From: an uncultured Bacilli bacterium
Lineage (GTDB): Bacteria > Bacillota_I > Bacilli_A > RF39 > UBA660
Assembly: GCA_944332155.1 (NCBI GenBank)
Contig: CALVJM010000004.1
Span: 1-35,193 of the forward strand
Length of the DNA stretch: 35,193 bases
Direction of reading: 5' to 3'
The notes beneath the pieces are model-generated. The model had not been told where the DNA came from and did no database searches. It saw only the letters and a list, made by a program, of their open reading frames with translations. How positions within the stretch are numbered: position 1 is the first letter of the stretch; each line of letters begins with the position of its first letter. Of this stretch, positions 7,458-13,714 are shown in pieces. The position numbers were made by a program, and so were the translations under genes.

Positions 7458-7475
7458 AATCTCTCTCCTTCCGCC

Positions 7476-7494
7476 ATGACATTTTAAATGTCAT
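7476..7494. promoter_or_regulatory. 19-bp perfect palindrome in the rpmE leader
   Basis: ATGACATTTTAAATGTCAT (9-1-9) lies between the inferred transcription start (near 7507) and the rpmE Shine-Dalgarno. It may be an operator, or an mRNA hairpin with an 8-bp stem and 3-nt loop that ends a few bases before the ribosome binding site. Confidence 0.55.
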
Positions 7495-7513
7495 AGAAAT
7501 TTAATGCTTCTAT

Positions 7514-11544: not shown

Positions 11545-11572
11545 CAAAAAAAGCGTATTATTACGCCTTTTA
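11545..11572 (-). terminator. ABC-F gene terminator
   Basis: GCGTA (11553-11557), loop TTAT, TACGC (11562-11566 region) with flanking A/T pairs, followed on the minus strand by TTTTTTTG. It begins at the ABC-F stop codon. Confidence 0.8.
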
Positions 11573-13072
11573 ATAAATTCTCTTTAATCCTTCTTTAGAT
11601 AACTCATATTTCTCTTGACAGACTTGCTCTATAAAATTTCGATCATGAGAAATACTAATAATAGCTCCTCCATAAGATTGTAACATTTGACAAATAACAG
11701 GTATAGATAATGGACTAACATTTCTCGTTGGTTCATCTAATAATAATACATTACATCCATCTAACACAAATTTTAAAAAGATTAATTTAGCTTTTGTTCC
11801 TCCACTTAAATATTTCATATTAGTAGTCATTTCTTCTTTCGAAAAATTCATATTTCCTAAATAACTTCGAACTTTTCCTATTTCTTCATTGTTGAAATCA
11901 ACATTTAAAAAGTCTAATGGTGTATCCATAGGATTCCATAATTCGTCATAGTTCTGAGGCATATAACCAACTTTTAAATCAGAACGTAATTGTAATTGAT
12001 GTAAAATAAACTTCAATAAAGTAGTCTTTCCAACACCGTTTTTTCCTACAATGACAATATGTTTATTTCCTAATATGTGTAAATGTAAATTTCGTGATAA
12101 TACCTTATTATCTATTTTTAACACCGGTAAATCTAACTTCAATATCTCTTTTCGTTGGGGCAATAATACTGGATTAAATTGAAAAAAGATAGCGTCTTCT
12201 ACCATCGGTTTTTCAGATATAGATTGATTTTGCATCCTTTTTTCTTGAGCTTTTAAACTATGAATTTTCTTTTTCAATTTAGCAGCTTCCCCAGGATAAC
12301 GACGACTAATTACATTTTGTGCATGTTCGACTTTTTGCGTGATTCGATCTAATTTTTCTTTTTTCTTTTGATAAAGATGTTGTTCTTTTTTGGCAACCAT
12401 TGTCGCATGTTTTAAATATCGATCACGAGTATTAATATATTCATTATATCCCATTTTTTTATATGTCCAACGAGGTTCTGACTTATTATGAATCATCTCT
12501 AGATGTAATATTTGATTTGCGGTAGCAGTAAGTAATCTTTCATCGTGTGAAACATAAATAATCGGTATTTTTTGTTTTTTAATAAATTGCTCCAACCACA
12601 ATAATGTAGATAAATCTAAATCGTTAGTTGGTTCATCAAAAATCAATAAATCAGGTTCCTGTAATAATATTTTTAATAATTGAAGTTTTACTTTTTCGCC
12701 ACCACTTAATACACTTATTGATGAAACTTCTTGAATATCTTCTCGTAAATGTAAATCTTTGATTAATTTATAATACAAATTTATTTTTCTATAGTAATCG
12801 TCTTGTGATTCATACAAATAATCAAAGACAGAATTAGCTAAATCTTCTTCTAAGTTTTGTTTTAAATAACCTATTCTTTTCGCACGACATACAATTTGTC
12901 CGTCTATCCACTGTAATTCTAGTTGCCCTATCAAAGCTTTTAAAAGTGTCGTTTTCCCAGTTCCTTCTTCTCCTATGATAGCTAAACAATCTCCAGAATG
13001 AAGATTAAATGATAAATTTTTTATGATTACTTTTTCTTGTATTTTTATTGTTACATTTTTTACTTCTAACAT
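11570..13072 (-). CDS. ABC-F family ATPase, possible ribosomal protection protein
   Basis: Soluble twin-ATPase protein that would bind the ribosomal E site. Domain 1: Walker A GEEGTGKT (34-41), LSGGE (122-126), Walker B with DEPTND. A Lys/Arg-rich interdomain linker (about 185-290) follows. Domain 2: GKNGVGKT (343-350), LSGGTKAK (422-429), then LLLDEPTRNVSPLS in place of the common DEPTNHLD. At 500 aa and with the DEPTRN variant, it resembles the antibiotic-resistance ABC-F group (Lsa/Vga-like) more than housekeeping EttA/YkpA. Resistance is inferred, not shown; the leader ORF and hairpin upstream support inducible control. Shine-Dalgarno AGGAGG is at 13078-13083. Confidence 0.85.
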   Translation of the reverse strand: MLEVKNVTIKIQEKVIIKNLSFNLHSGDCLAIIGEEGTGKTTLLKALIGQLELQWIDGQIVCRAKRIGYLKQNLEEDLANSVFDYLYESQDDYYRKINLYYKLIKDLHLREDIQEVSSISVLSGGEKVKLQLLKILLQEPDLLIFDEPTNDLDLSTLLWLEQFIKKQKIPIIYVSHDERLLTATANQILHLEMIHNKSEPRWTYKKMGYNEYINTRDRYLKHATMVAKKEQHLYQKKKEKLDRITQKVEHAQNVISRRYPGEAAKLKKKIHSLKAQEKRMQNQSISEKPMVEDAIFFQFNPVLLPQRKEILKLDLPVLKIDNKVLSRNLHLHILGNKHIVIVGKNGVGKTTLLKFILHQLQLRSDLKVGYMPQNYDELWNPMDTPLDFLNVDFNNEEIGKVRSYLGNMNFSKEEMTTNMKYLSGGTKAKLIFLKFVLDGCNVLLLDEPTRNVSPLSIPVICQMLQSYGGAIISISHDRNFIEQVCQEKYELSKEGLKRIY

Positions 13073-13150
13073 ATATACCTCCTTATGGGTATAAATGTTC
13101 TTTATACCCTTTTATTTTAGTATATATCCTCTTCTCATGTTCTCACCTCC
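13070..13150 (-). promoter_or_regulatory. Candidate ribosome-stalling attenuator of the ABC-F gene
   Basis: On the minus strand: strong Shine-Dalgarno GGAGGTG, an 8-codon leader ORF, then a perfect 9-bp hairpin (GGGTATAAA-GAACA-TTTATACCC, 13087-13109) ending 3 nt before the ABC-F AGGAGG. There is no U-run, so it is not an intrinsic terminator. In addition ATATATAC in the leader (13120-13127) can pair with GTATATAT at 13071-13078, covering the ABC-F start codon and the edge of its Shine-Dalgarno. A ribosome stalled in the leader would break that helix. Confidence 0.6.
13112..13138 (-). CDS. Leader peptide MRRGYILK
   Basis: Eight codons plus TAA upstream of the ABC-F gene, with GGAGGTG 5 nt before the ATG, a ribosome binding site as good as that of any full gene here. 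Short leader peptides in front of ABC-F and erm genes commonly sense ribosome-binding antibiotics by stalling. The Arg-Arg start resembles positively charged stalling peptides only in general character. The identity of any inducer is unknown. Confidence 0.6.
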   Translation of the reverse strand: MRRGYILK

Positions 13151-13167
13151 GCATAAAACATACTCAA

Positions 13168-13197
13168 ATTTTATCATATTTTATGGAATAATGTAAA
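13168..13197 (-). promoter_or_regulatory. Possible promoter of the leader/ABC-F transcript
   Basis: On the minus strand, TTTACA (13192-13197), an 18-bp spacer and TAAAAT (13168-13173), each five of six to consensus. It overlaps the 3' end of mntP and would start transcription about 20-25 nt before the leader ORF. Confidence 0.45.
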
Positions 13198-13714
13198 TAA
13201 TACCCAAAATAATAAGTACAACACCACCAATAACCGTAGATAATTTACCAATTAAATGATTAATATACTTTCCTAGTTTTAACCCTAAATAAGTAAAAAA
13301 ACCACTACATATTGAAAAAATAAAGCAAGAAATCATATAGTACTGTGTAATAGATGATAAACCAATACCTACAGAAAAACTATCTAAACTAACAGCAAAG
13401 CCAAAAACTAATAATTCCCACATATTCATATTTTTATTAATCTCTTCGTTTTTAAAGCTTTCAATCAACATTTGAACACCAATAAAAACTAGTACAAAAA
13501 AGACTAATAAATCAGGTTCAACAGGTAAAAAATGAACAATTGCCTGGCCCATTATTAAACCAATTAAGGGCATTAAAAAGTGATATAAACTGACAATAAT
13601 GGTTAAACTAATCATTGTTCTTTTAGGTAATCCTATCGTTCCATAAGCCAACGATAAAGAAAAGGCATCCATACTTAAACTAATTGCGACAACAATAATA
13701 ACTATTATGTTCAT
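13181..13714 (-). CDS. mntP: Manganese efflux pump MntP-like protein
   Basis: Six-helix inner membrane protein of the MntP/DUF204 family exporting Mn2+. Two half-repeats carry the family motifs: LSMDAFSLSLAYG in the first and VSLDSFSVGIGL in the second, with membrane Asp residues expected to bind Mn. At 177 aa it is of MntP length; the sporulation protein YtaF belongs to the same superfamily. In Bacillus ywlD/mntP lies next to spoIIR exactly as here, which favours MntP. No yybP-ykoY manganese riboswitch fits in the 90-bp gap upstream. GAAGGTGG precedes the ATG. Confidence 0.87.
   Translation of the reverse strand: MNIIVIIVVAISLSMDAFSLSLAYGTIGLPKRTMISLTIIVSLYHFLMPLIGLIMGQAIVHFLPVEPDLLVFFVLVFIGVQMLIESFKNEEINKNMNMWELLVFGFAVSLDSFSVGIGLSSITQYYMISCFIFSICSGFFTYLGLKLGKYINHLIGKLSTVIGGVVLIILGIIYIIP

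Follow-up and report, generated by a model that had tools for sequence, protein, structure and literature searches.

A probable translational attenuator worked by a tiny leader ORF upstream of an ABC-F gene in uncultured Bacilli

Introduction

In attenuators of the trp type, a ribosome that has reached the stop codon of the leader masks an arm which, if left exposed, would free the next one, and an early stall leads to an alternative pairing. In the translational attenuators of erm(C) and cat, a ribosome stalled on the leader opens the Shine-Dalgarno (SD) sequence of the resistance gene; these have four arms or one hairpin, and the stalled ribosome itself displaces an arm. The locus described here resembles both but would differ from each: unlike the trp type, its output is a ribosome-binding site (RBS), with no terminator, and the stall would occur at the leader start and not at particular codons; unlike in erm(C) and cat, a ribosome stalled early would not touch the first arm (arm A), which would be blocked only when a ribosome completes the leader.

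Very short upstream ORFs (uORFs) are known to control ARE-ABCF genes, such as MR[I/M] for CplR and MIN for VmlR, with induction by drugs that stall ribosomes at the start codon (PMC10201436, PMC9226507, PMC12421871). The cplR leader of Clostridioides/Clostridium (uORF MRI) likewise places a very short Met-Arg uORF before an ABC-F gene, and, as here, the closed structure hides the ABC-F SD, which early stalling is expected to free; for cplR, translational attenuation has been shown to be sufficient (PMC10201436). However, that leader is about 212 nt long, its uORF lies within a 5' hairpin, and a transcription terminator overlaps the SD (PMC10201436), whereas the element described here has about 80 nt, three arms, no T-run, a leader stop next to arm A, an apparent pseudoknot in most members, and an ABC-F of another clade. 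The vmlR leader of Bacillus subtilis (uORF MIN) shares the tiny uORF, stalling in the start region, alternative RNA structures and partial sequestration of the SD, but acts mainly by transcription attenuation, with an anti-antiterminator and NusG pausing in a 219-nt leader (PMC9226507). In the Streptomyces are5sc and tiaA leaders (uORFs MLV and MVGDDDISG), lincosamides, pleuromutilins and streptogramin A stall the ribosome on the first codon of the uORF, as we predict here, but the switch is of the terminator/antiterminator kind and the proteins are actinobacterial ARE5 (PMC12421871).

Results

The leader region in the window

The window, a stretch of 35,193 nucleotides, is one contig of a 1.2-Mb genome of an uncultured Bacilli bacterium. 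A sequence-only reading had pointed, on the minus strand, to the leader ORF MRRGYILK with its SD GGAGGTG, a perfect 9-bp hairpin next to the SD of an ABC-F gene, and an 8-bp pairing between leader codons and the ABC-F start. All three are present (Table 1): the hairpin consists of GGGTATAAA, the loop GAACA and TTTATACCC, and the leader/start pairing, ATATATACT:GGTATATAT, comprises eight Watson-Crick pairs plus one G.U. What that reading missed is a further pairing in the window, TATACC:GGTATA, between arm B and the SD/start region, and it is this one that is conserved in relatives.

Table 1. Features of the ABC-F leader region, in window coordinates.
Feature	Position	Strand	Remarks
Promoter-like site TTTACA-N18-TAAAAT	13168..13197	-	just 5' of leader; score 10.5; weak evidence
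Leader SD GGAGGTG	13144..13150	-	GAGGTG nearly invariant in family alignment
Leader ORF MRRGYILK, 8 codons + TAA	13112..13138	-	ATG at 13138; TAA ends at 13112
Leader segment ATATATACT	13119..13127	-	can pair with GGTATATAT at 13071-13079; outer helix of the sequence-only reading; lineage-specific at best
Arm A GGGTATAAA	13101..13109	-	9 bp with B; core identical to that of arm C; begins 2 nt past leader stop
Arm B TTTATACCC	13087..13095	-	partner is A or C
ABC-F SD AAGGAGG	13078..13084	-	adjoins hairpin
Arm C GGTATA	13074..13079	-	end of ABC-F SD plus spacer; paired with B in closed state
ABC-F ATPase gene, 500 aa	11570..13072	-	putative regulated gene; two ABC domains

The window element has a minimum free energy of -18.3 kcal/mol (z = -4.25 against dinucleotide shuffles), and the leader/start helix is part of this fold; a helix of at least 8 bp arises in 1.5% of shuffled leaders, and this helix is the weakest of the three features. 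Against a covariance model of the relatives the window element scores E = 1.3e-8, with the window sequence itself in the training set. The nearest relative carries a promoter-like TTTACA-N18-TAGAAT at the equivalent position, also scoring 10.5, and scores of at least 10 occur in 18% of the family loci against 5% of shuffles. Elsewhere in the window, an ordinary known element, the L31-Firmicutes ribosomal protein leader (Rfam RF03156), lies at 7465-7496 on the minus strand.

A three-arm plan conserved in the family

Orthologues of the ABC-F were found in 62 of the 386 genomes of the family, and in 62 distinct relatives a short ORF with an SD, mostly beginning with Met-Arg, stands at the equivalent place. 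The common upstream plan is a strong SD, a leader of 3-9 codons, a stop, arm A, a loop, arm B, an A-rich spacer and the SD/start region (arm C), with the consensus GAGGTGAGAAnATGAGAA...TAAGTnTGGCATAAACTTTnATTATGCC...AAGGAGGCATAATATG. Because C repeats A, B has two possible partners, A or C, and can never pair with both. When the sequence was shuffled without altering the SD region, this three-arm arrangement had p = 0.02 in the window, 0.005 in the nearest relative and at most 0.02 in nearly all family loci, although the rows are related and the p-values not independent; it is mostly absent before leaderless paralogues and was lost in a few relatives (L038, L052 and L075). Those three and L059 are family members that have lost the leader, the hairpin or both, natural versions that would be constitutive or differently controlled.

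Conservation in the element is among the highest at the leader SD and ATG, and its loops are not conserved. Arginine is found at codon 2 of 48 of the 62 leaders, compared with 5% of genes, and past Met-Arg the leaders vary in sequence and length; stalling specific to the peptide MRRGYILK is thus not supported. Across the 62 distinct loci not a single internal A:B pair is broken, all changes being wobble-compatible (GGTATAA, TTGTGCC, GGCGTAA) or compensatory, as in the two-way change GACATAA/TTATGTC, and in B:C one internal pair is broken in four loci. Between the window and the relative closest to it, at 64% protein identity, all three arms have changed together, from GGCATAA/TTATGCC/GGCATAA to GGTATAA/TTATACC/GGTATAT in the window genus. 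Since the three arms must change together, their variation is low and the covariation of A:B alone does not rise above shuffles; that of B:C, and of the combined structure with the pseudoknot described below, does.

It would be possible to read the GGCATAA repeats as half-sites of a DNA operator for a transcription regulator, with no RNA switch at all, given that A and B form an inverted repeat, C would be a third half-site and sequence conservation is strong. Such an operator is very improbable, as the loop length varies widely, the changes are G.U-tolerated and compensatory, the arms lie between a translated-looking ORF and an SD with the leader stop abutting A, and the topology recurs in other families, where the sequences are unrelated.

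An apparent pseudoknot in most relatives

In most relatives, AAGT just 5' of arm A and ACTT just 3' of it are conserved and can form a 4-bp helix, which together with A:B would apparently make an H-type pseudoknot. The two motifs are kept in five loci (L041, L054, L056, L068 and L123) despite a differing leader frame and stop, L073 has the compensatory pair TAGT:GCTA in their place, and the covariation score of the combined pseudoknot was reached by none of 500 shuffles. The extra helix goes with a weaker hairpin: A:B has 7-8 bp in most relatives and 9 bp in the window, and the energy of A:B minus that of B:C averages +0.6 kcal/mol in loci with the extra helix and -2.5 kcal/mol in loci without it, the latter, including the window, where the pseudoknot is impossible, having a longer or otherwise stronger A:B. 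Most loci without a pseudoknot are placed near the base of the tree and the pseudoknot-bearing loci form one large clade, so that they are not independent and represent largely one evolutionary split rather than many.

A small H-type pseudoknot combined with SD sequestration resembles in plan the small translational riboswitches, and one might suppose that the element binds a ligand and that the leader ORF is incidental. We give this idea hardly any weight, because the loops lack conservation, several relatives and the window have no pseudoknot, leader SD and ATG rank with the best-conserved parts, the element controls a single gene family, and nothing in Rfam matched it above threshold. The only Rfam match of note in the window element was cow-rumen-4 (RF02948; E 0.095-0.22, 21.5 bits against a cut-off of 48.5), which as here has AAGGAGG in a hairpin. 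We rejected it as a weak match arising from the shared AUAAGGAGG; no family relatives match, and none of 366 genomes gave a match above the cut-off.

Ribosome position and the cost of opening the ABC-F start

The leader stop codon abuts arm A, which starts 18-31 nt, mostly 22-27 nt, past the leader AUG (L125 set aside), and leader length and the gap from stop to A compensate each other. A ribosome at the AUG, with its edge at about +16, leaves A free, and a ribosome at the stop largely covers it. For 61 loci, excluding L125 (leader MKISV with a gap of 5 nt, by eye), we computed what it costs to open the ABC-F RBS once the stretch of mRNA occupied by the ribosome is taken out. Moving the ribosome from start to stop raised this cost by a median of +5.4 kcal/mol, and by more than 2.6 in 61 of 61 loci; in the shuffled control the median was -0.2 and none of 610 reached 4. 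The difference was robust to footprint edges of 13-18. For six-codon leaders the mean cost is 4 kcal/mol with the P site at codons 1-4 and 9.6 at codons 5-6, and in the window it is 2.4-2.6 kcal/mol at codons 1-5 (2.4 at codons 2-5) and 6.7-7.9 at codons 6-8, with the step between codons 5 and 6. The computed structures are two and mutually exclusive, one of them sequestering the ABC-F SD.

The naked window RNA, in which the leader/start helix raises the opening cost to 7.3 kcal/mol, would also suit the version of the sequence-only reading, where an outer helix between leader codons and the start region encloses the 9-bp hairpin, the gene is off when the leader is not translated, and stalling within MRRGYILK opens this helix, much as in erm and cat. 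The helix does belong to the minimum-energy fold, and a ribosome on the first five codons does lower the cost as that reading expected. But it is missing in the nearest relative, whose leader is MRRGLKQK and whose naked RNA is open (1.1 kcal/mol), and it attains at least 8 bp in only 6 of the 62 loci; weighed with its frequency by chance, this makes the version improbable. We therefore reject the outer helix as a general, conserved device, while the opening of the start by a ribosome on the first codons stands. In the window, the helix may be a local extra lock or a product of chance. The earlier proposal was right in kind and wrong on which helix matters.

In many relatives the RNA is computed to be partly open without any ribosome, in contrast to CplR, where knocking out the leader turns the gene off. 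Equilibrium occupancy of the SD was hardly changed by ribosome position in most relatives and failed to distinguish the states, since pseudoknots lie beyond RNAfold and A:B and B:C are equally stable; the probability of an unpaired SD was accordingly dropped as a readout in favour of the opening cost, although in the window occupancy also shifts with ribosome position, from 0.94 to 0.52. A T-run of at least five between arm B and the start occurs in none of the 62 loci, and there is no intrinsic terminator before the gene; the switch is therefore translational.

Specificity and distribution in other Bacilli

A covariance-model search of 385 genomes of the order returned 50 elements, one per genome and all directly before this ABC-F orthologue; 20 of the 50 genomes were recognised by the model alone. 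At class level (395 genomes) there was one further strong case, from another family (genome G784). There (L142/L148) a near-identical element and ABC-F stand in an assembly that is 70% complete, by recent transfer or contamination. Two other class-level matches (L146 and L147) are weak, have no ABC-F and were taken as chance.

Homologues at 36-50% identity in other Bacilli families mostly have very short uORFs as well: by a strict rule, a uORF is present at 24 of 40 class-wide loci, a set including a few loci from the window's own group, against 9% of shuffles. The opening cost rises from leader start to stop with p at most 0.033 in 11 of 30 loci of other families, several of which have quite different arms, for example ACCUACUAAAA / UUUUAGUGGGU / CACUAAAAG; the logic thus outlives the sequence. 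Other loci have terminators or different structures.

Among these distant homologues, the uORF/A/B/C plan with unrelated arm sequences is seen at L182, L183, L184, L186, L152, L154, L156 and L157. At L170, L172 and L176 leader codons can pair with arm A, as CAAATCTAT with ATAGATTTG, suggesting a possible four-arm, erm-like version. At L155 and L169 short uORFs are followed by T-runs, which suggests that transcription attenuation may occur within the same ABC-F clade.

The ABC-F protein

The protein has two ABC domains joined by a linker; a transmembrane domain was not found. The nearest solved structures are VgaA(LC), VmlR2, VgaL and PoxtA, and among plasmid genes Vga(C) is about 31% identical. 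The interdomain loop, between the linker helices, is short. AlphaFold, given the single sequence, was useless overall (mean pLDDT 39.6), and only residues 231-280, which form the linker helices, were predicted with confidence. In the second ABC domain, which has the sequence LLLDEPTRNVSPLS, RNVS replaces the usual ABC-F NHLD motif after Walker B.

In a tree of 85 proteins, midpoint-rooted and including few known resistance proteins, it falls into a separate clade (71 rows, support 100) that excludes VgaA, VgaC, OptrA and the housekeeping ABC-Fs, and it does not group with known resistance ABC-Fs; within this clade the leader-bearing family group is monophyletic (support 99). The score in NCBIfam NF000355 (ribosomal protection-like ABC-F) is 311.6 bits, below the cut-off of 380. 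As the protein falls below this cut-off, its interdomain loop is short and its clade stands apart from known resistance ABC-Fs, resistance is a guess rather than a finding, but a reasonable one, resting on the gene's patchiness and its divergence faster than that of its neighbours. The gene order mntP, ABC-F, fba, murA (window 11570-13714) is kept in the nearest relative, L086, where the ABC-F is 63% identical and the flanking genes 79-91%; judged by these identities, the difference would be due to fast divergence or to replacement in place.

The separate position of the clade is also what one would expect if the protein were an autoregulated housekeeping translation factor, its uORF sensing a natural stall in early elongation that the ABC-F itself resolves, with no antibiotic involved; ABC-F control of leaders has been described for EttA (PMC11282234). 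We find this unlikely, since the gene is patchy in the family, has varied neighbourhoods and diverges in a resistance-gene-like manner, and its leader peptides are unconserved past Met-Arg.

Discussion

The element is real, conserved and mechanistically coherent. Its anatomy, its conservation, its exclusive association with this gene and the effect of ribosome position were all seen or computed here. We consider it probable that the 80 nt before the ABC-F gene are a translational attenuator worked by a ribosome on the tiny leader ORF; the original prediction that this ORF and a switchable RNA control ABC-F translation is supported. Pairing of B with A would leave the ABC-F RBS (C) free, and pairing of B with C would close it. 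A ribosome reading the leader to its stop would cover A, leaving B to pair with C and silencing the gene. With a ribosome held on the first codons, A would stay free and A:B would form, as the 9-bp hairpin in the window and apparently braced as a pseudoknot in most relatives, allowing synthesis of the ABC-F. What triggers the switch is probably a drug or stress, of the pleuromutilin, lincosamide or streptogramin A type, that blocks initiation or early elongation, and the ABC-F protein probably relieves this block. That the leader is translated, that drugs stall it and in which direction the switch runs in vivo we infer from the geometry and by analogy with the published ABC-F leaders (PMC10201436, PMC9226507, PMC12421871).

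A broader reading, for which we see about equal reason to believe and to doubt, is that the device is gated by the stop codon and, blind to the peptide, senses that early translation is blocked, and that an ABC-F clade of Bacilli shares it, with unrelated arms. A finishing ribosome would close the gene. It would open when a ribosome is arrested on any of the first four or five codons, or when the leader is not translated at all, by formation of a long hairpin or an H-type pseudoknot and independently of the leader peptide.

In Rfam and the papers searched we found no family or description for this element, and no study of this ABC-F clade or of these uncultured Bacilli; a search of those papers for pseudoknot-type attenuators of resistance genes likewise found nothing relevant. 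The element is a new variant among the CplR/VmlR/Vga-type leaders. Described ABC-F leaders act largely through transcription terminators, whereas the version here is compact and translational, with clear evidence from base pairing, and the switch model predicts codon by codon which ribosome positions would turn the gene on. The family may represent a possible reservoir of inducible ribosome-protection genes.
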